NCBI RefSeq assembly: GCF_000317515.1
Contig: NC_019738.1
Location: forward strand, 3,808,001-3,872,000
Length of the DNA stretch: 64,000 nucleotides
Direction of reading: 5' to 3'
From: Allocoleopsis franciscana PCC 7113
GTDB lineage: Bacteria; Cyanobacteriota; Cyanobacteriia; Cyanobacteriales; Coleofasciculaceae
Under the pieces are notes generated by a model that saw only the letters and a list, made by a program, of their open reading frames with translations, was not told the origin of the DNA and made no database searches. Shown piece after piece: positions 51,421-63,486 of the stretch (position 1 is the stretch's first letter; each line of letters starts with the position of its first letter). The position numbers were made by a program, and so were the translations under genes.

Positions 51421-51457
51421 TTGTTGCAATTAGTACAACATTTTGTCAGTTTAAAAT

Positions 51458-52565
51458 GTTTCAATCCCTGATAGGGATTAAGTGGAATTTAAACAAAGGA
51501 AAGCATCATGATTACCAAGCAGAAAAGAGTTTCAATCCCTGATAGGGATTAAGTGGAATTTAAACGGGAAGGCGTTCGTTCATCTTGAATTTCAAACGGT
51601 TTCAATCCCTGATAGGGATTAAGTGGAATTTAAACTTCATGTGAGAGCGGATAAACGCCTCGATTTGTTTCAATCCCTGATAGGGATTAAGTGGAATTTA
51701 AACGACTTGCAGTCTACAAGCCATCTACCTCGATTGAGTTTCAATCCCTGATAGGGATTAAGTGGAATTTAAACACCAGTTGATGAGCCGTCTTGTAGTG
51801 GAAGTCCTTGCGTTTCAATCCCTGATAGGGATTAAGTCGAATTTAAACGAGGAGCGGGAGAAAGGGGCACGAATCATTTTCACGGTTTCAATCCCTGATA
51901 GGGATTAAGTGGAATTTAAACGTTCCTCGTTCGGAAAGGCTCTTTGGCCCAAGCCAGTTTCAATCCCTGATAGGGATTAAGTGGAATTTAAACACACCAC
52001 TAAAGCCGTTTGCCTAATTGGCGCTCAAGTTTCAATCCCTGATAGGGATTAAGTGGAATTTAAACCCCAAGACTCGTATTCAGAGGCTTGATCGATCGCC
52101 GCGTTTCAATCCCTGATAGGGATTAAGTGGAATTTAAACAGCAAATGGCAAGATGAAATCTTAATCGCTGTCGTTTCAATCCCTGATAGGGATTAAGTGG
52201 AATTTAAACCGATCGCCCTTGGACTTGATAGAGGTGAAGTTCTTGTTTCAATCCCTGATAGGGATTAAGTGGAATTTAAACTAACGTTTCCCGTGACATT
52301 AAGAACCAAGTGTCTGTTTCAATCCCTGATAGGGATTAAGTGGAATTTAAACTTTTAAGGCTATTCGTGGCGAAAAATGACCGGGCTGTTTCAATCCCTG
52401 ATAGGGATTAAGTGGAATTTAAACCCCATTCTCTCACCGGTGAAACGCAGGATATCAGTTTCAATCCCTGATAGGGATTAAGTGGAATTTAAACACAATC
52501 CTGGAGGAATTTCTCTAGTTTGGCTCTGGTTTCAATCCCTGATAGGGATTAAGTGGAATTTAAAC
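51458..52565 (-). CRISPR. CRISPR array, 16 repeats of 37 bases, type I-D associated
   Basis: Sixteen 37-base repeats and 15 spacers of 31-37 bases (31, 33, 34, 35, 36 and 37 occur). On the plus strand the repeat begins GTTTCAATCCCTGATAGGGA and ends GGAATTTAAAC. The reverse complement ends ATTGAAAC, the usual eight-base 5' handle of type I-D crRNAs, so I read the array on the minus strand, with the leader at the 52566-52815 side next to cas2. The stem AATCCCT/AGGGATT is inside the repeat. All repeats agree except number 6 from the left (51812-51848), which has one G-to-C change. Confidence 0.97.
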
Positions 52566-52815
52566 CGCAGGCATCCAGAACCCTTACTATATTTAGTTTT
52601 CAAGGTACGTTGGTGACGGACACCTCTTATAGTAGCATACCAGAGCCAAAGGATGATAAGAGGAAAATAAAAAATCCGCTGAAATCTAGTCATATCAAAG
52701 GTTTCAGGAGCGGTGACACACTCATTGAAACAGCAAAGGCTGCAAACCCTTGTGGAATAAGGAATGCAGCCCCAAAAATAGATTACCCTCAGAAAACACC
52801 TACCGACCGTCACCA
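52566..52815 (-). promoter_or_regulatory. CRISPR leader between cas2 and the array
   Basis: About 250 bases of AT-rich DNA lie between the cas2 stop and the first repeat on the minus strand. A TATAGT at about 52583-52588 could be the -10 box of the array promoter; no clear -35 was found. It contains no supported gene. Confidence 0.6.
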
Positions 52816-53088
52816 TCAAGCAAAAAAAATCGAATTATCTCGCAGTTGCTCACCGCCGATTCGCTCCACCTTACCCTGACAGCAAGCACAAAGCCCGTAG
52901 AAGCGGATACTGTCTTCATCAGGTTTGATAACCTTACCCAAGCGCGATCGCAACTTAGCATACTGCGTCTCGGTCAGCTCACACTCAAACACACTATACT
53001 GCATCCACTGCCCATAAGACTTCAGAATCGAGTGAATTTTCGTGCGGCGCTTATCTTCTGGAATGTCATAAGAAATAACTACATACAT
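52816..53088 (-). CDS. cas2: CRISPR-associated endonuclease Cas2
   Basis: A 90-residue protein with the Cas2 start MYVVISYDIPEDKRRTKIH, in which the Asp is a catalytic or structural metal ligand, and QYSVFECELTETQYAKL as the ferredoxin-like core. It bridges two Cas1 dimers in spacer capture. It begins 2 bases after the cas1 stop and precedes the array leader. Confidence 0.95.
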   Translation of the reverse strand: MYVVISYDIPEDKRRTKIHSILKSYGQWMQYSVFECELTETQYAKLRSRLGKVIKPDEDSIRFYGLCACCQGKVERIGGEQLRDNSIFFA

Positions 53089-53090
53089 GG

Positions 53091-54095
53091 TTATCGCAAA
53101 AACAAAGGTGGATACTTGTCAATTTCGCCCATCAAATACTTTGCCAACAGCCGCGCCTGAATCTCAAACGCCTCTTGATACGTGCATTTGCGTCCCAACA
53201 CCGGATGCTTAAACTCCGATTGTTTCTTCATTTCATACTGCCGCAAAAACTCACGCCGTCCTTCAGGAGACAGAAACACCGCATTACTCAACGGCTCACT
53301 GGTAAAATCAGAAGGCTTGAGAATACCATGATTAATCGCATTCAAAACCATCGAATCCACCACCAACGGACGAAACTCTTCCATCAAATCCAGTGCCAAA
53401 CCTGGACGACCATAATGTTCAAAGTGGAGATATCCTAAATAAGGGTCAAACCCCACAATATTCACCGCACTTTGGACATCGTGACGCAATAAAGAATAGC
53501 CAAAACTCAACAATGCATTCACCGGATCAGTCGGTGGGCGACGGCGTCTGGCGGCAAAACTAAACCCCTCAACCCGAATTAACTGATTAAACGCCCCAAA
53601 ATACGCCGCACTTCCTGCCCCCTCCAAACCTCGCAGAGAATTAATCGAATTTGTTTTATCAATGGGTGCGATCGCATTTTGCACCCGATCAATTGCAGCT
53701 TGCCAATCCAGTTCAGAATATTTACGCTGATTTCGATTCAGAATTGAACGATAATTCTTCAACTTCCCTCGCACAAAACCCCGCACCACATGCACCGATT
53801 GTTCCGTTTCCCCAGCCGCTTGCCACTGTGCCTTTCTCACAAAAATATTCTTCGTCATTTCCGGTTCTAACCTCCCCAAATATTTACCCGTTCCCATCAT
53901 GAAACTCAACGGAATCTTCCGTTCCATTAATTCCGAAACAACAGCCGGAGAAACCGTAGCCCGTCCCAAGACAACCACCCCTTCCACTTTAATGAAGGGT
54001 ACATCGAGAATATTTTTCTTGTCTGCTTTAACAATGAGACGTTCGTCGGTTTTCCCGATAAATGAATCTTCTTGAGTAATGTAAACAGTTCCCAT
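53091..54095 (-). CDS. cas1: CRISPR-associated integrase Cas1 (type I-D)
   Basis: A 334-residue integrase. I use the ATG at 54095 (MGTVYITQEDSFIGKTDERL) because AAGGAGAAATC lies directly upstream; a longer frame to 54209 lacks family similarity. Metal-binding residues are Glu in LRGLEGAGSAAYFG (about 182), His in FEHYGRPGLALDL (about 245) and Glu in LMEEFRPLVVD. It inserts new spacers with Cas2, and Cas4 helps to select PAM-correct ends. A four-hairpin repeat separates it from cas4. Confidence 0.96.
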   Translation of the reverse strand: MGTVYITQEDSFIGKTDERLIVKADKKNILDVPFIKVEGVVVLGRATVSPAVVSELMERKIPLSFMMGTGKYLGRLEPEMTKNIFVRKAQWQAAGETEQSVHVVRGFVRGKLKNYRSILNRNQRKYSELDWQAAIDRVQNAIAPIDKTNSINSLRGLEGAGSAAYFGAFNQLIRVEGFSFAARRRRPPTDPVNALLSFGYSLLRHDVQSAVNIVGFDPYLGYLHFEHYGRPGLALDLMEEFRPLVVDSMVLNAINHGILKPSDFTSEPLSNAVFLSPEGRREFLRQYEMKKQSEFKHPVLGRKCTYQEAFEIQARLLAKYLMGEIDKYPPLFLR

Positions 54096-54208
54096 GATTT
54101 CTCCTTTTTTGATGATGAATTGGAAACTTTGGATTACCACTTTCTGAGGAAACCTTGATTTCAACTCTTGAACATTCCAGCAACCCGATCGGAATTTCCA
54201 GTACCCCA

Positions 54209-54321
54209 CCCGGAAATTAATTTCCGGGCTAATAGATCAAGTCCACTTAAGTGGACTGAAATCTTTATTTAATCCTCTAAAGAGGACTTTCTCTATGAGC
54301 CAGGGATTTAAATCCATAGCG
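54209..54321. repeat. Four-hairpin repeat between cas4 and cas1
   Basis: Stems CCCGGAAATTAATTTCCGGG, AGTCCACTTAAGTGGACT, TCCTCTAAAGAGGA and GGGATTTAAATCC occur in the same order and spacing as the repeats at 51306 and 54980. Confidence 0.8.
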
Positions 54322-54361: not shown

Positions 54362-54955
54362 TTAATCCGCTTCTTGATAGCGTCCCACCTTATTAACAAC
54401 CTGGGGCAAACATTGAGCAGAAAGACTGCATCCAGAACAACGTTTGCTGTAAATGGGTTGAGGCATAATACCTGTTTGCAATAAAGTTGTAACCGATTGA
54501 ATTGTTGCGATCGCGTCTTCTCGGAGTTGGGCAGAAATCTCTACTGGTTGGCGTTGGTGAGAGTGGGCATAGTAAACATAACCCGTTGTTACCGATTGCC
54601 CCGTCATTTCTTCAAGACATAAGGCTTGAGCACAAACTTGCAACTCATCATTATCCCATTCGCCCTTGCGTCCCCGCTTGTACTCAATCGGATAAAGTTG
54701 ACCAGAATCTGATTCGATTAAGTCTGATTTTCCAATCAGTTTGTACTGTTCTGATTTCAGCCAAATCGCTCGAATCTGCCAGGTTTCTTCGCGATTACTT
54801 TCTCCGAGGGTATGGACGCGATCGTGTAAACTTGTCCCTTCAATTGTGTATTGATTATCGGTAAATTCCCCCGCACAAAACATCCGCCAGCAGCGATGGG
54901 GACAGTAGGCATATTGGTTGAGTGATGCGATGGGGATGTAATCAATTTCGTTCAT
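54362..54955 (-). CDS. cas4: CRISPR-associated exonuclease Cas4
   Basis: A 197-residue RecB-like nuclease from the ATG at 54955 (MNEIDYIPIASLNQYAYCPH); a TTG at 54985 is possible. Iron-sulfur cysteines are Cys18 or Cys22 near the N-terminus and CSGCSLSAQC near residue 175. The nuclease motif is GKSDLIES (Asp) with PIEYKRGRKG (Glu and Lys), and ELQVCAQALCLEEM is the QxxxY-like helix. It trims prespacers before integration. Confidence 0.94.
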   Translation of the reverse strand: MNEIDYIPIASLNQYAYCPHRCWRMFCAGEFTDNQYTIEGTSLHDRVHTLGESNREETWQIRAIWLKSEQYKLIGKSDLIESDSGQLYPIEYKRGRKGEWDNDELQVCAQALCLEEMTGQSVTTGYVYYAHSHQRQPVEISAQLREDAIATIQSVTTLLQTGIMPQPIYSKRCSGCSLSAQCLPQVVNKVGRYQEAD

Positions 54956-54979
54956 AGATTTCGAGTAAGGTAGCTTCAC

Positions 54980-55105
54980 CCGCAAGGGACTTAATTCCCT
55001 TGCTAATACATCAAGTCCACTAAAGTGGACTAAAGATTATTGATTAATTCCTAGTCCTCTTTAGAGGACTTGATCTATGAGACAGGGACTTAAGTCCCTG
55101 GCGGG
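54980..55105. repeat. Four-hairpin repeat between cas6 and cas4
   Basis: Stems AAGGGACTTAATTCCCTT, AGTCCACTAAAGTGGACT, AGTCCTCTTTAGAGGACT and CAGGGACTTAAGTCCCTG follow one another, as at 54209-54321. It starts just before the cas4 frame. Confidence 0.82.
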
Positions 55106-55130: not shown

Positions 55131-55976
55131 TTATTGATTATTCAATCGCCGTACCATTCCCATTCCCATCGTCGTTTTCCTCCCAACACCGCTATAAAGA
55201 GCAAAATTTGATAATGCATTAATTTGCTTAATTGTCAAGGGTTCAACCTCTCCTAAAAGGCGAAAACTCATCGCCCCAACACAACCAATAAACTTACTGC
55301 GAGAGTCGGCAACCATTTCCGTGTGAATATCGAAAAAACTGGGAAAGATTGGCTCAATTAATGTTTTGGGCAGTTCAATACCGCTGTATTGATTCCAACG
55401 CTTAATTAGACTATTAAACACCAAGTCTCGTGTGGGTAAGGCGCAGTCATAATTGCTTTGTCGGAAGGCGGTGGGCGTACAAAAAGCTAACTCAATTTGG
55501 CGATTACTCTCTGAAGATTCCTCGTAAAGTTGAGTATAGCTAATCGCATTCGCCCAAGGTTGAGTGGATTGGGGAGTACCAAGGATACTAGTAATGTGCA
55601 AGTCGGCAGGGCCGAGATGCCAGGGATGATTAGGGTTGAGGTTGAGCCAGAGTTGGGTAAGTTTGCTGAATAGGGTGTCATCGAGTAGGGAGATGCGCCA
55701 CCAGCAAGGAGTACCCGCAGCAATAGCTTTTGTGTGTTCCCATTGCAGAGTGTAGCGATTCCTCCCTTGCCCCCCCTTAATCAGAGGGGAGTGAATCAGT
55801 TGCAATGGACTGAGAGTAAAGGGTTTGTCAGCTTTGGATTCGTGGAGGTAGTCACCCAATTTGCGATCGACGGAACTAACAAGGGTGAGGAAGAGGGCGT
55901 GTAGATGCCGTCCAGTCAGGAATTGCGGGGGAATGGGCGACTGGGGCAGGAGGTTGAGGATGAGGCTGTGGGGCAT
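55131..55976 (-). CDS. cas6: CRISPR RNA endoribonuclease Cas6
   Basis: A 281-residue RAMP protein from the ATG at 55976 (MPHSLILNLLPQSPIPP); a TTG at 56018 would add 14 residues. The C-terminal glycine-rich loop GVGRKTTMGMGMVRR near 262 is typical, and the N-terminal LTGRHLHALFLTLVS supplies a likely catalytic His. It cuts pre-crRNA within the repeat, leaving the ATTGAAAC handle. The segment SPLIKGGQGR near residue 78 is encoded by a CCCCCCCTTAATCAGAGGGG repeat (about 55763-55794) that keeps the frame. Confidence 0.9.
   Translation of the reverse strand: MPHSLILNLLPQSPIPPQFLTGRHLHALFLTLVSSVDRKLGDYLHESKADKPFTLSPLQLIHSPLIKGGQGRNRYTLQWEHTKAIAAGTPCWWRISLLDDTLFSKLTQLWLNLNPNHPWHLGPADLHITSILGTPQSTQPWANAISYTQLYEESSESNRQIELAFCTPTAFRQSNYDCALPTRDLVFNSLIKRWNQYSGIELPKTLIEPIFPSFFDIHTEMVADSRSKFIGCVGAMSFRLLGEVEPLTIKQINALSNFALYSGVGRKTTMGMGMVRRLNNQ
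55763..55794. repeat. G/C-run palindrome inside cas6
   Basis: Plus-strand GCCCCCCCTTAATCAGAGGGG with flanking CTCCCTT and AGTGA resembles the dispersed G/C-run repeats. Translated on the minus strand it gives SPLIKGGQG, a peptide often seen where such repeats invade reading frames. Confidence 0.65.
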
Positions 55977-56010
55977 TGAATTTGGGTTTAAATAAATGAA
56001 GATTAAGTGT

Positions 56011-56619
56011 CTATACAACCAAAGATTGAACCAGTATTCGCATCAGTGGCTCTAAATCATCTGGAACTCGATAGCTATCCAAGCCTTGTTCAATGTGTTT
56101 TGTTGCGCGATTGAGCCGTCCAAACTGCCATATTTTTCCAGTAGTTACTGCACCAAGCAAAACTGATTGTTCAGGAGTTCTCTCCCACTGATCTAGAGCG
56201 ATCATTTCTGCTACAAGCTGTGTAAAACCGTAGTCTAAATCCTCACGCTTCGCTTCAATTACTAGCAACTCTGTTTGACTTCTCAGCAGGTAATCTAAGT
56301 AACCTTGTAGTTGTTCTGTAACTTTGATGGGATACTCAATTCTCAATTGAGCTTTAGTGTATTGAACTACCTGCAAAAGTACCTGTGAAATCAAAACTTC
56401 ACGTCGAGAGGTCTCACTTGCTAAATCAACGTAAGGAAGCACGGCTTCAATGCTGGTTTTGAGGTATTCCAAATGCTCCAATTCTGGCTGATATTGGGGC
56501 AACTGTAACCGCTTGCGAATCAAGTTATATCCAAACTCATTTGCTAATTCATCGGGAAGAATCCTTAATTCAAAGATTTTACTAAATGTATAGGATTGAT
56601 TCGGATTTAAAAGTCGCAT
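56011..56619 (-). CDS. PD-(D/E)XK nuclease-like protein in the cas operon
   Basis: A 202-residue protein that I do not recognise as a standard Cas protein. A likely PD-(D/E)XK core is GYLDYLL (Asp109), LLVIEAKRED (Glu122, Lys124) and a following Gln134, with a helical N-terminus. Similar stand-alone proteins resemble the N-terminal nuclease part of type I restriction R subunits. It lies between cas3' and cas6 on the same strand, with a 54-base gap to cas3', and its stop is 35 bases before the cas6 ATG. Its role in the CRISPR system is unknown; it may be a cargo or ancillary nuclease. Confidence 0.72.
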   Translation of the reverse strand: MRLLNPNQSYTFSKIFELRILPDELANEFGYNLIRKRLQLPQYQPELEHLEYLKTSIEAVLPYVDLASETSRREVLISQVLLQVVQYTKAQLRIEYPIKVTEQLQGYLDYLLRSQTELLVIEAKREDLDYGFTQLVAEMIALDQWERTPEQSVLLGAVTTGKIWQFGRLNRATKHIEQGLDSYRVPDDLEPLMRILVQSLVV

Positions 56620-56673: not shown

Positions 56674-58962
56674 TTAAATTACCCAAAAGTCTTCTTCATC
56701 AGGACATTTTAATGCAACTCCAGCAGAGGCGATCGCTAGAATCCCAGATAAACTTGGAAAGAATGTGTATTGCTTCGGTGAGGGACAATCGTAGGAGGAC
56801 ACGTAAATGGGGTAACACTCTAATCCCTGCTTTCTCAAACGCACGATCGCCCAGCGATTCTTCGCCGTTTCAGAAACAATTACACCTGGAATAAGCTGTT
56901 TCTCAATGATTGATGGTGTGGGTCGTACAACATCGCCATGCATTCGCTTGATACTGCAATTTTCAAAGGCATAAAGCTTGCACAAGAGTGTGTTTTTGAA
57001 GTCTTGTAGGTCGCTAACTTGCAGCGAGAAGGCTAGATTGTACGGCTCATCAACCCGTGCTGTGACTTCTATGCGATCGCCATCACTCTCAAATTCATAA
57101 AAACGCAGCAAATGAATTGGGTCAAGATTAGTTTCTCCTACCTCATCCAAAAGCAGATTATGTGGATCATAAATTTTGACATTGCCAAATAAGCTATCTC
57201 GGAACCGAAATAGAGGAGCATAGCTTGCTTTGAGAATTACAGCGTACTTTTGTATATCTTTAGCAAGCTCTTGCTCTTTCTTAATCATCTCTTCGATTGT
57301 TTTAAAAGAAGCGCGTCCAGTTTTAATTTCTTCATAATCTTCTGGACAGTAAGCTCTCAGATAGCTCATGACAAAGCTTTGACCACCTTTGACATATTTC
57401 CAATCCTTTTGAATCTCTTTAACAGTCTTCCTCGCAATATCCTCCGCTCCTTTCAAGACTTTCATCCGCTTTTGATAATCTTCCCATTTTCGCTTTCCTT
57501 TGAGAACCTCTTGGAGTGTTTGATAGAGCTTAATTACTAAATGATCGTCAGGTAGTTCTTCTAGAAAAGTTTCAAGTTCAAGCAAAGGTTTAGCTATCTC
57601 TAGAAATGCTTCCGATCGCCAGTAAATATCCAAAAACGGACGCTTCATGCAGTCTAAGCTTTCTAACATTTCCTTGAGGGCTTCCCGTCCACCAGAACAG
57701 TCTAGATTCTCTATTCCTTGTTCCCAAGCTTGCTCAGGTAAATAGGCGATCGCTTCTGAGGGAATATCGGTTTGCTTCTTACCCAGCACCCGCCCAACTC
57801 TGCCAAGGCGCTGCCAGAAAGAAAAGCGATCGCGTGTTGAGAAAATCAGCCAATCAAGGTTTTGTCGCTCCGGCTCAACTTCACGCTCAAAATTAAACCC
57901 AACATCTACTGTACTCGTAGCGAGAATGACTTGCTTTTGTGCTGCCTTTTGTCGCTGAGCGATGGGTGTACTACCCGTGATACGCCCACAAATATCTTCT
58001 AAACCTCGCGCTCTTAAATTGTCAGACAAACGGTTAAGTATATCTTTAGAGTCAAGAATCACTGCACCGTTGTGCTCAGGATAGTTTTGCAGCCTTTGAA
58101 CGACTTCATTCGCGATGTCGTTAATCAGTGCATCTCTGTCTAACTGCTTGCGAATCTCCAGATTTACTGCTGTCTGAGAAGGAGTGAGATGATCTGTTTG
58201 TGATTCTCCATTAATTGAGGAAGAAATTCTTACTCCAGATTTTTTAAGAACTTCTAAAGCTGCTTCACAAGCTGGCTCTGGTGTTGCTGTTAGAAGAACA
58301 ACTTTGCGATTGTACTGAAAGTAATTGAAAATCTTTGAAAGAGCTAGGTAAAAGAACAAGCTGACAAGCTGTTTGGCATCGTACAGGTGAAACTCATCAA
58401 AGATGACTGTTGAGAAACTGTTGTAGAATTCACTAGCAATATTGCCGCGATCTAGCTTGTTGTAGGCAAAAAACGTTGCGTAATAGAAAATATCTGGGTT
58501 GGTAACGAGCAAAATTGGTCTACCGCCGCCACATTCCGGGAAAATCGTTGCAGGTTCACGTAGCACATTGTAAAGCTTTTCCCCAGAACGATTGCCAACC
58601 AGATCATCTCGCCAACTCTTAATATGTCTTGCAGATGCAGCTTTGACGATATGTGGTAAACCTGCATCCCGCACAAATTTTTCTGCTGCTTCAGTTTGTT
58701 GTTCGATCAGTGCATTGGTGGGTGCAATGTAGACTGCATTGCGATCGCGGTTATGATGCAGCACACTTAACCCAGCTTTGGTTTTTCCAGTTCCCGTTGG
58801 TGCAAGGTCAAGGATGATATCATTCGTTTCTGCTGCCTTATAGACATCAACTTGGTGCTGAAGTGTCTGGTTCATAAATGCTTGCGCCAAGCCTGAGGGT
58901 AAGTCAGGATTGGGACAGAGGGCAATGCTACGGGGTTCGAGGTTGATTTTCAGATTACTCAT
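56674..58962 (-). CDS. cas3': Type I-D Cas3' helicase
   Basis: A 762-residue superfamily 2 helicase from the ATG at 58962 (MSNLKINLEPRS); GTG at 58977 is an alternative. Motifs are Walker A APTGTGKT (about 54-61), DEFH (189-192), LLTATPEP, ATSTVDVGFNFE and QRLGRVGR. It has no HD nuclease domain, which in type I-D is carried by Cas10d. It unwinds target DNA after Cascade binding. Its start overlaps the csc1 stop. It comes after csc1 here, whereas in the Synechocystis type I-D locus cas3' precedes cas10d. Confidence 0.94.
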   Translation of the reverse strand: MSNLKINLEPRSIALCPNPDLPSGLAQAFMNQTLQHQVDVYKAAETNDIILDLAPTGTGKTKAGLSVLHHNRDRNAVYIAPTNALIEQQTEAAEKFVRDAGLPHIVKAASARHIKSWRDDLVGNRSGEKLYNVLREPATIFPECGGGRPILLVTNPDIFYYATFFAYNKLDRGNIASEFYNSFSTVIFDEFHLYDAKQLVSLFFYLALSKIFNYFQYNRKVVLLTATPEPACEAALEVLKKSGVRISSSINGESQTDHLTPSQTAVNLEIRKQLDRDALINDIANEVVQRLQNYPEHNGAVILDSKDILNRLSDNLRARGLEDICGRITGSTPIAQRQKAAQKQVILATSTVDVGFNFEREVEPERQNLDWLIFSTRDRFSFWQRLGRVGRVLGKKQTDIPSEAIAYLPEQAWEQGIENLDCSGGREALKEMLESLDCMKRPFLDIYWRSEAFLEIAKPLLELETFLEELPDDHLVIKLYQTLQEVLKGKRKWEDYQKRMKVLKGAEDIARKTVKEIQKDWKYVKGGQSFVMSYLRAYCPEDYEEIKTGRASFKTIEEMIKKEQELAKDIQKYAVILKASYAPLFRFRDSLFGNVKIYDPHNLLLDEVGETNLDPIHLLRFYEFESDGDRIEVTARVDEPYNLAFSLQVSDLQDFKNTLLCKLYAFENCSIKRMHGDVVRPTPSIIEKQLIPGVIVSETAKNRWAIVRLRKQGLECYPIYVSSYDCPSPKQYTFFPSLSGILAIASAGVALKCPDEEDFWVI

Positions 58963-59746
58963 CGGTGCGTCCACCACAAAATTTTAGATTTGCAGGTAAG
59001 GTAAAATCGCCAACCTTCCAAGCTGCTCCATGAAACCGCAAGTTTTTCAGTAGGGAAACGGGAGGAATGGAGATTAGGTCAAAGGTAAATAGTTCCAGGT
59101 TGTTAGGTATATCAGCAGCACTGAGATAGACATTGCAGCAATAATCAGCAACAGGAAGCAGTGTTATCGTCAGTTCTCGCACGACATCGATACGCACTTT
59201 GCTGGTGAATTTGCCAATCCGGATGTATTCGGGTAGTTCTCTATTCCCAAATACCAATGTTTGAAAGCGACTGCCCCGCTCAATGACTCGCAAACGTCCA
59301 GTTTGGGGAAAGTTACTGGGGCGAAAGGTATTTGGCTTTTTCCCCGTTCGCTTAAGCGGTAAGTCTTCCCGCGCAGTTGCCACACGGTTATTGGTCATGG
59401 CATACCAGTAAGAATCAGACAGAGCATTGAATCGCTCGAACCGGAATGATATTCCCCCCTCGACTGGGTAAGCAGGAAGGATGTAGCACTGCTCTGCTAG
59501 TGGGGTTAGGTCTTCAAGATATCTGGGTCGTCCGGTGTCTTTCCCGGTTAGGCGGTAAGGCGATCGCGCCCATCCCAACGCATAGGCTAAAGCGTAGTTT
59601 CCGATCGCACCTTCGGTGTAGTAAGTATCTGATAATTCCCGCGAAGCAAAAAAGACAGGTTCGGCACACCACAACTCGATTAGACGAGCAGTTTGAAACG
59701 GAAGATTAGCATCGGAGGAAGTCGGCGAAATTTCTAATTGTGGCAT
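58955..59746 (-). CDS. csc1: Type I-D Cascade subunit Csc1 (Cas5d)
   Basis: A 263-residue RAMP protein of the Cas5 group that caps the crRNA 5' handle. Features are LIELWCAEPVFFASRELSDTYYTEGAIGNYALAYALG near the N-terminus, KRTGKKPNTFRPSNFPQ in the middle and a C-terminal LKNLRFHGAAWKVGDF. It starts 4 bases after the csc2 stop and overlaps the cas3' start. Confidence 0.93.
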   Translation of the reverse strand: MPQLEISPTSSDANLPFQTARLIELWCAEPVFFASRELSDTYYTEGAIGNYALAYALGWARSPYRLTGKDTGRPRYLEDLTPLAEQCYILPAYPVEGGISFRFERFNALSDSYWYAMTNNRVATAREDLPLKRTGKKPNTFRPSNFPQTGRLRVIERGSRFQTLVFGNRELPEYIRIGKFTSKVRIDVVRELTITLLPVADYCCNVYLSAADIPNNLELFTFDLISIPPVSLLKNLRFHGAAWKVGDFTLPANLKFCGGRTDE

Positions 59747-59749
59747 GGC

Positions 59750-60763
59750 TTACTCTTCCTGTTTTTCACCTCGTCCCTTTTTCTTCCCTTCACTTTTCAC
59801 TTTGCGGAGTGGTGCATAGGACTGATCGAGACGCTTGAGAAATGTTTCCTGTTCGGTCAAATCCCAATGGCGATCAACATCAGCAATGAGTGCATCCAGT
59901 TCGTCAGCAGACAGTTGCACCGAGATTCCCCGTTTGTTTGTCCAGTTAGCAATTACAGATTGAGTCACCGAAACTAGAGCTTCAGTATTAAACGGATGTT
60001 CGAGAGCTTTCCCATCCCCAATGAGCTTGTCGTAAACCCCCTGCACTAATTCAAGAGAACTTGGCAGTTCAGCAATACCGCCAAAGATGCCGAGAATCTG
60101 ATTTTCCATCCGTCCAATGCGACTCGAAACGGCTCCATAACGGCTTGTTAGCAGAATGTTGCCGAGGGCATAGCGCAACTCGTCAGCTGTTACATCTTTG
60201 AGCGTGACAATATCAAGGAAGTGAACACCTGGTTTAATGTATTCGCTAGTGTTTAGAGCTGTTGAGGCATTACCCTTTTCGTCACGCATTGTTCCAGTTT
60301 CAAAGATGGCGTTGATAGTGCGATCGCCAATCAATTCCGTTGAAGGCAAAACACTAAAAGCATCTTCTGTCCAAACACGGCTTTTTTGTGCGCCTTCACC
60401 TCCAGCCGCAAAACCGTAGAGGAAACAGTCAATACACATTTCGCAAGGTGCATTAGTATTGAGGGCACAAATAGAGTCGCTCTTTGGTGCAGAGTAGAGG
60501 AGTTCGTGCGATCTTAAGAATTCCCGTCCTCGCCGCCGTTCGGGTGCAACCTGCTTACGCTTGGTCATCACTAGCCGAGGAATTGACTCGGTATGCTCGA
60601 TTCCAGCCTGAACATACTCGCTGCACATTGGTTCCCCTGTACCTTCAGTGCGAAAGATAGTTTCAGATTGCGTCGTGCGAAGTACAACAACTCCAATCGT
60701 GCGTCCTTTGGGAAAGTTTTCGTAGCTGGATGCGAGAAATGGTTGCAGTTTTTCAATGGACAT
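59750..60763 (-). CDS. csc2: Type I-D Cascade subunit Csc2 (Cas7d)
   Basis: A 337-residue RAMP protein that forms the crRNA-binding backbone. Typical features are ILR-like VVVLRTTQSETIFRTEGTG, a Cys-rich segment NTNAPCEMCIDCFLYGFAAGG, and SRIGRMENQILGI. The C-terminus (KSEGKKKGRGEKQEE) is highly charged. It follows cas10d after 11 bases. Confidence 0.95.
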   Translation of the reverse strand: MSIEKLQPFLASSYENFPKGRTIGVVVLRTTQSETIFRTEGTGEPMCSEYVQAGIEHTESIPRLVMTKRKQVAPERRRGREFLRSHELLYSAPKSDSICALNTNAPCEMCIDCFLYGFAAGGEGAQKSRVWTEDAFSVLPSTELIGDRTINAIFETGTMRDEKGNASTALNTSEYIKPGVHFLDIVTLKDVTADELRYALGNILLTSRYGAVSSRIGRMENQILGIFGGIAELPSSLELVQGVYDKLIGDGKALEHPFNTEALVSVTQSVIANWTNKRGISVQLSADELDALIADVDRHWDLTEQETFLKRLDQSYAPLRKVKSEGKKKGRGEKQEE

Positions 60764-60774
60764 GATGATTACTC

Positions 60775-61197
60775 CTATTTGGCTTCAGTTACTTGTTTGG
60801 TTTGGGCTTTTAGTTCTTGACGGGCTTCTTGTAGAAAGAACAGATAAGCGGCTTCCAGAGTTTTGCTATCAGTTAAAAGCCGTTCTGGACGTGAATGGTA
60901 AACTTCCTCAAACAGTTCTTTTAAGACTTGATAAAACTGTTTAACTTGCTCATATTTCGTTGCACCAACACCGTGCTCTCGAATGCGATCGAGGCGAGTG
61001 TGATAGTCCTGAACCAGCGCGGCAAAAATCGTTTCCCAATCCATGTGAGACTTGCGCGATCGCACTGCCTTAATGAATTCAGAAAAGGGTTCAGCTTGAG
61101 CGGTACGACGAAATGAACTGCCTCGTAGTTTTCCTACTTCAGCAATATGAGCTGCTTTTTTGAGATACTGGGAAACGCGATCGTGTTCTTCTGACAT
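60775..61197 (-). CDS. cas11d: Possible internally translated Cas11d small subunit
   Basis: An in-frame ATG at 61197 (residue 764 of Cas10d, MSEEHDRVSQYLKKAAH) follows GAAGAG by about seven bases. Translation from it would give 140 residues of helical C-terminal domain. In type I-D systems a small subunit is known to be made from an internal start within cas10d; this one is my prediction. Confidence 0.4.
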   Translation of the reverse strand: MSEEHDRVSQYLKKAAHIAEVGKLRGSSFRRTAQAEPFSEFIKAVRSRKSHMDWETIFAALVQDYHTRLDRIREHGVGATKYEQVKQFYQVLKELFEEVYHSRPERLLTDSKTLEAAYLFFLQEARQELKAQTKQVTEAK

Positions 61198-63486
61198 AAG
61201 ACTCTTCAATAGTGTGGCTAGAGGTTCACAAATGCGAGTCCAGATTGCTTCCAGATTTGGATCATCTTGTTCTCGTAAAACCCATCGCAATAGGATGTGA
61301 TAGAGATCGAGCGGTCGTTGGGCTGCGCGTGCTAAGTCGTAGAGGCAATCGTCTTTTTTCTGGAGGCTGGCAACGCTAATAACTAGTTTTCCAATACACT
61401 CCAATCGCTGCCTTACCTCTTCAGCAGTCAAAGCAAACTGTTGCTCTTGTCGAGATAAATGACCTTGACGTTGATAAATTCCCGATCCGAGTAACGGTTG
61501 GAGTGCAGAAGCAATGCCCTCAACTCTTCCAAAGACATCCCACTCTGGTTCAACTTCTAAATTGGCACTGAGAATGAAAGGCAACCCAAAATCAGGAGCA
61601 AGCGACAGTTCTAATGCCAAACGCAACGACTTGAGCAAAGCAACTGAATTATTGGCATCACCCCAAACCACCGGAATCGTGACAGTGGAGTAGGTGAACT
61701 CTGGACGCTTTGGCAGTGCAAACCCGACAACCTTATTCGCTTTGAACGCGATCAGGTTATCTCGATACAACTGCAATTCGTCGATTGTTACCGTTCCTCC
61801 TTCTGCGTTCGTTGCTGCTGTATCGTGAAGCCACTTTCGCCAAATGGCTTGTAATTGAGGACTTGACCCTTTAGGTAGGGCAAAGTGTAAGTACAGTGGG
61901 TCTTGCTTGCTGGCTTTCGGAAAGTTAGCACCCACCGTCATTAGCTGGTAAGCCAGGGATGCCAGGGTATCTGCCCGCCGCTTGGGTTCTGCACTCATGC
62001 CACCCGGAAGACGGTTTGAGAAAGCTTGTACCTTTGTTCCCGGTGGCATTTTGTTAGAAATCAATTCATCGACCTGAGCAGAAGTTGCTCCCAAAGAACA
62101 ACGCTGGCGCGGATTTGCCTCAACATAAGCAGTCAGTTCTGCAAACCTTTTCCAATCTGTTACACTAGAAAAATTTAGTAATCGCCTAACCGCTATTATC
62201 AAATCCTCTGAAACATCAACGTCTTCAGTTTGTCGGAGTTGAAACGAATCTTGTAAAGTGGCGCGAACGCTCTCTATTCCACGCGCCACAGCTTTAACCG
62301 CAAACAAACTACGCCCGTATTGAGCGTTGAATGGTTCCAAAGCAGTACGTTGTTCAGGAGAAAGTCCAACATGGGTAGCAATGTGATCCCAGGCAGCTTT
62401 AGGACTGAGTTCGGCTTCTCGATAGCTGAGATACGCCGCTTTCATTCCTTCCGAAAGCGCAAACTCATCAGCCGTTGCCACAGGAGTTAATCCAACTGAT
62501 TGAGCAGCAGCGATCGCGTCTTCTCCCGCATCTCTACCATACTTCTCAATGTCTTGTGCGACTTTATCAGATTTGTAGCCGCTTAGCTTTCTGGTCAGTA
62601 GGATTTCGACTTGCTCAAGCGCAGCTTCTGGATTCTGTTGAATCGCTTGCGGATCGACTTTAATTCCATCTTTAGTGGCTTTAACGAGTTGCTCAACGTT
62701 TCCGCTAAAAACGCGATCAATCCGTTTCTGCCATTGTCTTGCAATCTCGACGGTTAAATCTTCTTCAGGAAATGCTTCACCTTCAAAAATTTGCCCATCG
62801 GGGTCAATGGCAAGAGTATGCAAGCTGCGCTTATGCAAGACTTCTTCACAGGCAGATAGTAACAGTGAAGTCAGATAACCCCGCTCTTCTGACAGCGTTA
62901 CCTTAAACAGCCGACTAGCGCGACTGAAGACAACCGTTAATTCATTTTCTACTTTACGAATACGCTTTTCTTCTTCAATTCCCAAATCAAACAAATCGCC
63001 ACCAATGAGCATTGCCGCCCATCGTTTGATTTGATCTTTAATTTTGGGATCTTCCGCAACAAAACGCATTCCATCGGTATTACCGTGACCAGAATGGCTT
63101 TCAATCAGACGGCGAATCAGTTCAAGATCGGCATCTGTTTTGATCAGTGTACTTACACCAGCACCCTCAAGTTGTTCTGTTAGAAAGTTGCGATCGCGTG
63201 CTAGGGTTTTGACATTGCGCCCATCTTCTGTCAGTTTGTTCAAATCGTGAACAGCAGTTGCAGCAAGAATGCAAGCTCGCTTATCTTCAGGGACTTCAGC
63301 AATTTTGCTAACAGTGAGAACAAATTGACAGGCTGAGTCGAGGTGTTCAGCGAGAGTCCGTCCTTTGCGGGAGCCATGCTGTCCATGAGTTGCATGTAAC
63401 TCGTACAGTCTGGGGCGAATCTCCTTAAAATAATGCTCGTCTAAACTTTCCGGCTCACCGTTTAGAAGCCAACGGCGTTTTGACAT
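60775..63486 (-). CDS. cas10d: Type I-D Cas10d (Csc3) with N-terminal HD nuclease
   Basis: A 903-residue large subunit. The N-terminal HD domain has H48 (LAEHLDSA), His80-Asp81 (AVHDLNKL) and His131/His134 (ESHSGHG) as metal ligands for target-DNA cutting. A palm-like middle follows; there is no GGDD cyclase motif. In the region where Cas10 proteins often hold a zinc finger, only one Cys (463, RCSLGATS) remains. The C-terminal part (about 745-903) is the small-subunit-like helical bundle. A GAGAGGAAAGC ribosome site precedes the start. It opens the cas operon. Confidence 0.94.
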   Translation of the reverse strand: MSKRRWLLNGEPESLDEHYFKEIRPRLYELHATHGQHGSRKGRTLAEHLDSACQFVLTVSKIAEVPEDKRACILAATAVHDLNKLTEDGRNVKTLARDRNFLTEQLEGAGVSTLIKTDADLELIRRLIESHSGHGNTDGMRFVAEDPKIKDQIKRWAAMLIGGDLFDLGIEEEKRIRKVENELTVVFSRASRLFKVTLSEERGYLTSLLLSACEEVLHKRSLHTLAIDPDGQIFEGEAFPEEDLTVEIARQWQKRIDRVFSGNVEQLVKATKDGIKVDPQAIQQNPEAALEQVEILLTRKLSGYKSDKVAQDIEKYGRDAGEDAIAAAQSVGLTPVATADEFALSEGMKAAYLSYREAELSPKAAWDHIATHVGLSPEQRTALEPFNAQYGRSLFAVKAVARGIESVRATLQDSFQLRQTEDVDVSEDLIIAVRRLLNFSSVTDWKRFAELTAYVEANPRQRCSLGATSAQVDELISNKMPPGTKVQAFSNRLPGGMSAEPKRRADTLASLAYQLMTVGANFPKASKQDPLYLHFALPKGSSPQLQAIWRKWLHDTAATNAEGGTVTIDELQLYRDNLIAFKANKVVGFALPKRPEFTYSTVTIPVVWGDANNSVALLKSLRLALELSLAPDFGLPFILSANLEVEPEWDVFGRVEGIASALQPLLGSGIYQRQGHLSRQEQQFALTAEEVRQRLECIGKLVISVASLQKKDDCLYDLARAAQRPLDLYHILLRWVLREQDDPNLEAIWTRICEPLATLLKSLMSEEHDRVSQYLKKAAHIAEVGKLRGSSFRRTAQAEPFSEFIKAVRSRKSHMDWETIFAALVQDYHTRLDRIREHGVGATKYEQVKQFYQVLKELFEEVYHSRPERLLTDSKTLEAAYLFFLQEARQELKAQTKQVTEAK

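Follow-up and report, generated by a model that had tools for sequence, protein, structure and literature searches.

Type I-D CRISPR operons are known to replace their effectors while keeping their adaptation genes, and in the passages that describe this (PMC5704561, PMC10212523) cas6 is retained along with the adaptation genes, as in the loci analyzed here. Those passages describe no nuclease gene at the joint, which is where such a gene sits in our loci; in the part of PMC5704561 drawn on here, other PD-DExK families are mentioned near CRISPR loci without detail. PADLOC already lists a CRISPR-associated PD_DExK profile, PDLC01472, that fits the present gene (gene X) and its relatives, yet its label is generic across CRISPR types and silent on the mobility of the family, its slots within type I-D operons and the many matching copies outside CRISPR loci.

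Several described nucleases resemble X in part. The HsdR N-terminal domain, BpuSI and DrdV have a nuclease fold in common with it (structural Z 9.3-10.9), with weak sequence likeness to HsdR; unlike HsdR and type IIG enzymes, X is a protein of 202 residues without motor, methylase or specificity domain. Uma2 (DUF820, PF05685) is likewise a solo PD-(D/E)XK nuclease, abundant in cyanobacteria and found inside or beside type I-D operons, but no Pfam sequence match to X is reported and the structural Z is only 6.7. Cas4 (TIGR00372, PF01930) has both the PD-(D/E)XK superfamily and the CRISPR neighborhood in common with X. The identification of X as Cas4 nevertheless fails: the profile match of 15.5 bits is far under the cut-off of 65, X has none of the four cysteines needed, and a true cas4 lies in the same operon. 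The homing endonuclease I-Ssp6803I also belongs to the PD-(D/E)XK enzymes; a phmmer search of X against PDB sequences found nothing at E values of 10 or below. Among the papers listed by literature searches on type I-D CRISPR and on PD-(D/E)XK families, none dealt with X in type I-D operons.

Here, we follow up X in the window, a stretch of 64,000 nucleotides from the cyanobacterium Allocoleopsis franciscana PCC 7113. We consider it rather probable that X belongs to a mobile family that spreads as a bare open reading frame (ORF), that module exchange makes the gene order seen in the window, and that X is an optional DNA nuclease accessory to type I-D systems.

The gene and its operon

In the window, the minus strand carries a complete type I-D operon with the gene order cas10d, csc2, csc1, cas3', X, cas6, cas4, cas1d, cas2 and array (Table 1). 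The first-pass annotation had pointed to a PD-(D/E)XK nuclease-like ORF between cas3' and cas6 on the same strand, and it is indeed there, with an ATG start, no internal stops and a gap of 54 bp after the end of cas3' at 56674. The stop codon of X occupies 56011-56013, 34 bp from the likely ATG of cas6; the longest, TTG-started cas6 ORF overlaps X by 8 bp. Homologues, the PADLOC profile, dN/dS and the structural model confirm, far beyond chance, that X is a real gene. The genome of the window itself contains 17 matches to X at E up to 1, X included, of which five are close (43-56% identity) and the others weaker. The further copies are found at other chromosomal sites or on contig C3, and comparison of the copies' flanks for repeats gave only two short matches. 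As a separate observation, one of the 16 repeats of the adjoining array carries a single-base change.

Table 1 Features of the type I-D locus in the window
Feature	Coordinates	Strand	Evidence
Gene X, 202-aa stand-alone PD-(D/E)XK nuclease-like protein	56011..56619	-	ORF, profile, alignment, model
cas3', type I-D helicase, TIGR03158	56674..58977	-	316.6 bits, cut-off 69.1
csc1 / cas5d	58955..59746	-	profile match
csc2 / cas7d	59750..60763	-	profile match
csc3 / cas10d, HD dyad intact	60775..63486	-	profile match and residue check
cas6, longest ORF with TTG start; likely ATG start at 55976	55131..56018	-	
cas4	54362..54985	-	profile match
cas1d	53091..54209	-	TIGR04093, above cut-off
cas2	52816..53088	-	profile match
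CRISPR array adjoining cas2	51456..52591	.	16 repeats, ~37 nt, spacings 68-74

Fold and active site

The structural prediction that the first-pass annotation had proposed yields a confident nuclease-type fold (AlphaFold pLDDT 94.4, pTM 0.91). The top nucleases in a VIA-align comparison are BpuSI (Z 10.9), DrdV (10.6) and an HsdR fragment (9.3), and because of this model and these matches, the fold of X is predicted to be that of restriction nuclease domains. The proteins of the family stand alone: their fold is akin to the nuclease domains of HsdR (type I) and type IIG restriction enzymes, and they lack any helicase, methylase or target-recognition domain. Foldseek with the same model returned no match at E 0.001 or better. 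Above the nucleases, VIA-align placed chains 5 and s of the large subunit of the mammalian mitochondrial ribosome (Z 14.8, 194 residues), which we take to be mL37 and mL65; a literature search found no papers naming both of these proteins together with "nuclease".

At the sequence level, PDLC01472 matches the window X at 3.1e-28 over residues 68-196 and also matches 39 of 39 relatives, so that X, with both a profile match and cas genes nearby, falls within the PD_DExK group of PADLOC. The HSDR_N_2 profile (PF13588) reaches 16.9 bits on X, under the Pfam cut-off of 25, which leaves X outside that family; it matches 16 of the 39 relatives at E 0.1, and one relative carries the annotation HsdR N-terminal domain protein. 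Five residues, E74, D109, E122, K124 and Q134, are invariant in all 39 aligned relatives, and they include the three (Asp109, Glu122 and Lys124) that had been named earlier. Of the 45 CRISPR-linked copies, 42 retain the full site, as do 59 of the 60 other copies, with a single K124R outside CRISPR loci.

Distribution in type I-D loci

The TIGR03158 cas3' is present in 126 of the 388 genomes of the class, and the window X was searched in these as two sets of 63, with matches at 1e-10 in 40 and 48 genomes, respectively; over all 388 genomes, 125 have a match at 1e-50. From 140 fetched regions, whose gene order was resolved by iterated profiles, two layouts emerge: layout A, the window type, runs cas10d-csc2-csc1-cas3'-cas6 and onwards, and layout B runs cas3'-cas10d-csc2-csc1-cas6 and onwards. 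X homologues do occur in other type I-D operons, where the first-pass annotation had suggested to look for them: 30 of 107 cyanobacterial loci holding cas10d, csc2, csc1 and cas6 contain X or a fragment of it, or, as a less biased count, 27 of 104 without the three contigs that were fetched because of X (L086, L087, L090). Since it is absent from 72% of these core-complete loci, X is an optional and not a core type I-D gene, which agrees with its initial description as a non-standard one.

X or a fragment of it is found in 6 of 22 layout A loci and 22 of 83 layout B loci; the two other loci are a hybrid and one of unclear layout. It lies between cas10d and csc2 in 18 loci, between cas3' and cas6 in five layout A loci and between csc1 and cas6 in three; other arrangements occur in one locus each, and two loci have paired or split X ORFs. 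The suggestion that X was inserted together with cas3' as a unit can be set aside, as 16 of the 22 layout A operons have cas3' in place without X, and the layout B slot is mostly that between cas10d and csc2. When 41 of the best 50 matches over the 388 genomes (229 bits or more) were inspected by hand, 28 adjoined cas genes and 13 had none within the fetched DNA, which for several spanned only 1.5 kb. The first-pass annotation had regarded unlinked homologues outside CRISPR loci as an argument against its reading; most family members do lie outside, but the closest subfamily is strongly cas-linked.

The family is a cyanobacterial one with multiple copies. When one genome per species was scanned, 59 X loci were obtained, 58 with cyanobacterial titles, and the remaining one is a MAG titled Gammaproteobacteria that carries a layout B type I-D operon. 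Searches of 50,697 phage records returned no match and none was confirmed in viral contigs, PHROGs gave a single weak family match with a function-less label (1.9e-5), and 13 plasmid records, all cyanobacterial, contain X; the two examined, one of them pPg_01 of Pseudanabaena galeata, carry type I-D operons with X.

The same operons contain other insertions. An IS200-type ORF lies in the cas10d-csc2 gap of L108 and, by sequence likeness, also of L129 and L169, and in many type I-D loci the gap between csc1 or cas3' and cas6 hosts Uma2, a HepT/nucleotidyltransferase pair, a 2OG-Fe(II) oxygenase or uncharacterized ORFs. In a Prochloron type I-D operon (L257, 7500-12663), X occurs three times, along with the tail of a fourth copy; intervening and 3'-end bases are 94-100% alike and ORF-length matches only 73-80% identical.

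Integration into the operon

Among 26 distinct loci with X between cas10d and csc2, eight (one of them the truncated L291) have a 4-base overlap between the X start and the cas10d stop, and because of this overlap X is probably read as part of the cas operon in some operons. Aligned pairs indicate that the final cas10d codons of X-bearing loci are unlike those of X-less relatives, and several X-bearing loci have a GGAGG-like stretch at the end of cas10d, directly before the X start, that would be the ribosome site of X. Distances between X sequences correlate with those of cas6 (Spearman 0.43) and csc2 (0.31), which compares with 0.24 for csc2 against cas6 and 0.38 for csc2 against csc1, so X tracks cas6 and csc2 about as well as cas genes track one another. 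No such correlation is seen with cas10d (0.08, to which split ORFs add noise) or cas1 (0.06). A role of X as a substitute for a lost Cas10d nuclease is ruled out, as 27 of 27 X-bearing loci retain the HD dyad; so do 86 of 87 loci without X, the remaining one being a gap.

Spread as a bare open reading frame

The nearest relative of the window X (L237, 87%) lies outside CRISPR loci in Symploca sp. SIO2E6, with a Uma2 gene and a GTPase gene, presumably mnmE, as neighbors, and DNA homology between the two copies covers the ORF and 7 bp upstream. This pattern is general among pairs with at least 82% DNA identity that passed our filter, which left out same-locus pairs, short contig flanks and matches not placing X on X: all 38 non-CRISPR pairs and all six mixed pairs have only the ORF in common, although the qualifying pairs are drawn from a few clusters of copies and are not independent. 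In these pairs, homology reaches from -10 to +57 bp upstream and from -10 to +32 bp downstream. Among 14 CRISPR-CRISPR pairs, seven have the ORF alone in common, four one flank and three both flanks. Flank likeness at 1e-5 follows the same division, with 229 CRISPR-CRISPR, no CRISPR-other and three other-other pairs upstream, and 246, one and two such pairs downstream.

Decay of formerly common flanks explains these data poorly, because same-slot CRISPR pairs retain flanks over 700 bp or more at a synonymous divergence comparable to that of some non-CRISPR pairs (only 0.16-0.6). Since the qualifying non-CRISPR pairs have the ORF and at most about 60 bp in common, X moves among genomes and sites as a bare ORF, accompanied upstream by no more than some dozens of bases. 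Near-identical copies whose surroundings are unrelated, as in these pairs, are what one expects of a mobile gene. The flank comparisons revealed no common flanking ends, and the ends of the ORF hold no conserved DNA signals, synonymous conservation not being raised there. Non-CRISPR copies have no systematic neighbor: among 132 neighbor proteins, DegT aminotransferases and Uma2 are the most frequent with four each, and the 25 commonest PADLOC families among them include no Cas family, which leaves room for single Cas neighbors.

Tree, selection and decay

On a tree of all 105 X sequences, 45 of them CRISPR-linked, the CRISPR label needs at least 18 changes. A tree of 97 sequences, from which eight long, truncated or recombinant rows were removed by hand, needs 16, of which 13 are forced by well-supported branches. 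Shuffled labels need about 31-34 changes, so the CRISPR label is clustered, yet far from a single origin, and a single CRISPR-bound clade is ruled out by its appearance in 0% of 200 bootstrap trees. Copies within and outside type I-D operons are thus intermingled, with at least 13 well-supported switches. With the root placed outside CRISPR, the 16 changes fit either 15 entries and one exit or four entries and 12 exits.

Selection on X is purifying both inside and outside operons, given dN/dS of 0.043-0.254 (around 0.1) in the 21 of 23 pairs that yielded a value. Damaged copies also exist: X is split in two in L065, reduced to an 80-aa piece in L067 and a short piece in L068, and truncated in L291, and the full-length copies in the type I-D operons L066, L069 and L070 have lost catalytic residues, with E122F common to L066 and L069. 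The L069 and L080 proteins are near-identical in their last quarter and not before, and because the likeness is confined to this part, it suggests exchange between X copies.

Origin of the cas3'-X-cas6 order

Comparison of L058 (layout A) with L060 (layout B), both of which we take to be Nostocales, offers a model for how the window order may have formed. The two loci are alike in X and 26 bp upstream (90.8%) and have cas6-cas4-cas1-cas2 at 86-91% identity, the csc2-csc1 of L060 is missing between X and cas6 in L058, and L058 retains the last bases of a cas10d gene upstream of X. L203, too, keeps such sequence upstream of X, about 47 bp with homology to L060; a csc1 remnant and cas6 follow X, and a different Cas3 type precedes it. 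In L203, L058 and L240 alike, X stays beside cas6 (and cas4-cas1-cas2 where present) while the effector differs. In the hybrid L077 / L253, which has two csc2-csc1 sets, an A module precedes a cas10d tail of 115 aa, followed by X and then by the B-type csc2-csc1.

Because of these patterns in L058/L060, L203 and L077, we infer that X remained at the joint when effector modules were exchanged. Such a history would start from a type I-D operon with X between cas10d and csc2, in which a new effector module, cas10d-csc2-csc1-cas3', would replace the older cas3'-cas10d part; loss of the old csc2-csc1 would put X at the point where the module meets cas6-cas4-cas1-cas2. No cas10d remnant is visible upstream of X in the window, and for this reason the same history may be extended to the window order only by analogy with L058 and L203.

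Accessory nuclease or passenger

Somewhat less surely, X may act as an accessory DNA nuclease in type I-D immunity. Within the operon it would be an optional DNA endonuclease made together with the type I-D complex, cutting invader DNA alongside the HD nuclease of Cas10d and not replacing it. Copies that are optional, repeatedly acquired, catalytically conserved and read with the cas operon fit this role. Against it stand the many loci without X, the broken or catalytically altered copies, the nearest relative outside CRISPR and X distances that do not track those of cas10d or cas1.

A close rival, and one that we regard as quite conceivable though not as the better bet, is that X is a passenger, selfish or neutral, similar to Uma2: a mobile nuclease gene that settles in permissive operon gaps, has no CRISPR role and is conserved through its own spread. 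The solitary copies, the patchy presence and the other mobile genes fit such a passenger almost as well: non-CRISPR copies are equally conserved beside unrelated housekeeping genes, X is missing from most type I-D loci and decays in some, and the same gaps elsewhere host Uma2, HepT/nucleotidyltransferase, oxygenase and IS200 genes. What argues against it is that landing in type I-D operons is far too frequent for chance (28 of the 41 best matches examined, for an operon that makes up about 0.2% of the genome), that the cas10d-csc2 gap otherwise hosts only opposite-strand IS200-type ORFs, and that the start/stop overlap with cas10d occurs in several clades. Because of this excess in type I-D operons and the coupling to cas10d, the accessory role is rated slightly above the passenger.

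It is improbable, in our view, that X is a toxic guard, harmless while the type I-D system works and freed upon its disabling to cause abortive infection. The comparable solo PD-(D/E)XK family Uma2 has been proposed as a solo toxin in the portion of PMC2701414 consulted, and toxin-antitoxin genes occupy the same gap of other type I-D loci, but no partner or antitoxin gene accompanies X, its non-CRISPR copies are solitary, and most otherwise complete-looking type I-D operons do without it. Least probable of all is that X trims spacer precursors with Cas4-Cas1-Cas2, the genes it stays with on effector exchange: its position beside cas6 in L058, L203 and L240 despite differing effectors and its weak resemblance to Cas4 profiles agree with this, but Cas4 is already encoded in the operon, the main X slot lies among effector genes, X distances do not follow those of cas1, and X has no cysteines for an iron-sulphur cluster.

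The accessory role and the mobility of the family can be joined in a more specific and distinctly tentative picture. In it, X would be a one-ORF mobile element of cyanobacteria without recognizable ends, with a block of homology that reaches from no more than about 60 bases before its start to its stop codon, which homes preferentially into type I-D operons, couples to cas10d, is kept as an active accessory with few dead lineages and comes to sit at effector-exchange joints.

Significance

The nuclease gene described here enters one type of CRISPR operon time and again, and about a quarter of the loci retain it under purifying selection. Its spread as a bare ORF, with homology that stops near the stop codon in all 38 qualifying non-CRISPR pairs, raises the question of how one gene can move when it has no visible ends. 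X also makes it possible to ask directly whether type I-D defense gains from optional nucleases, and the several type I-D loci without X would serve as natural controls.
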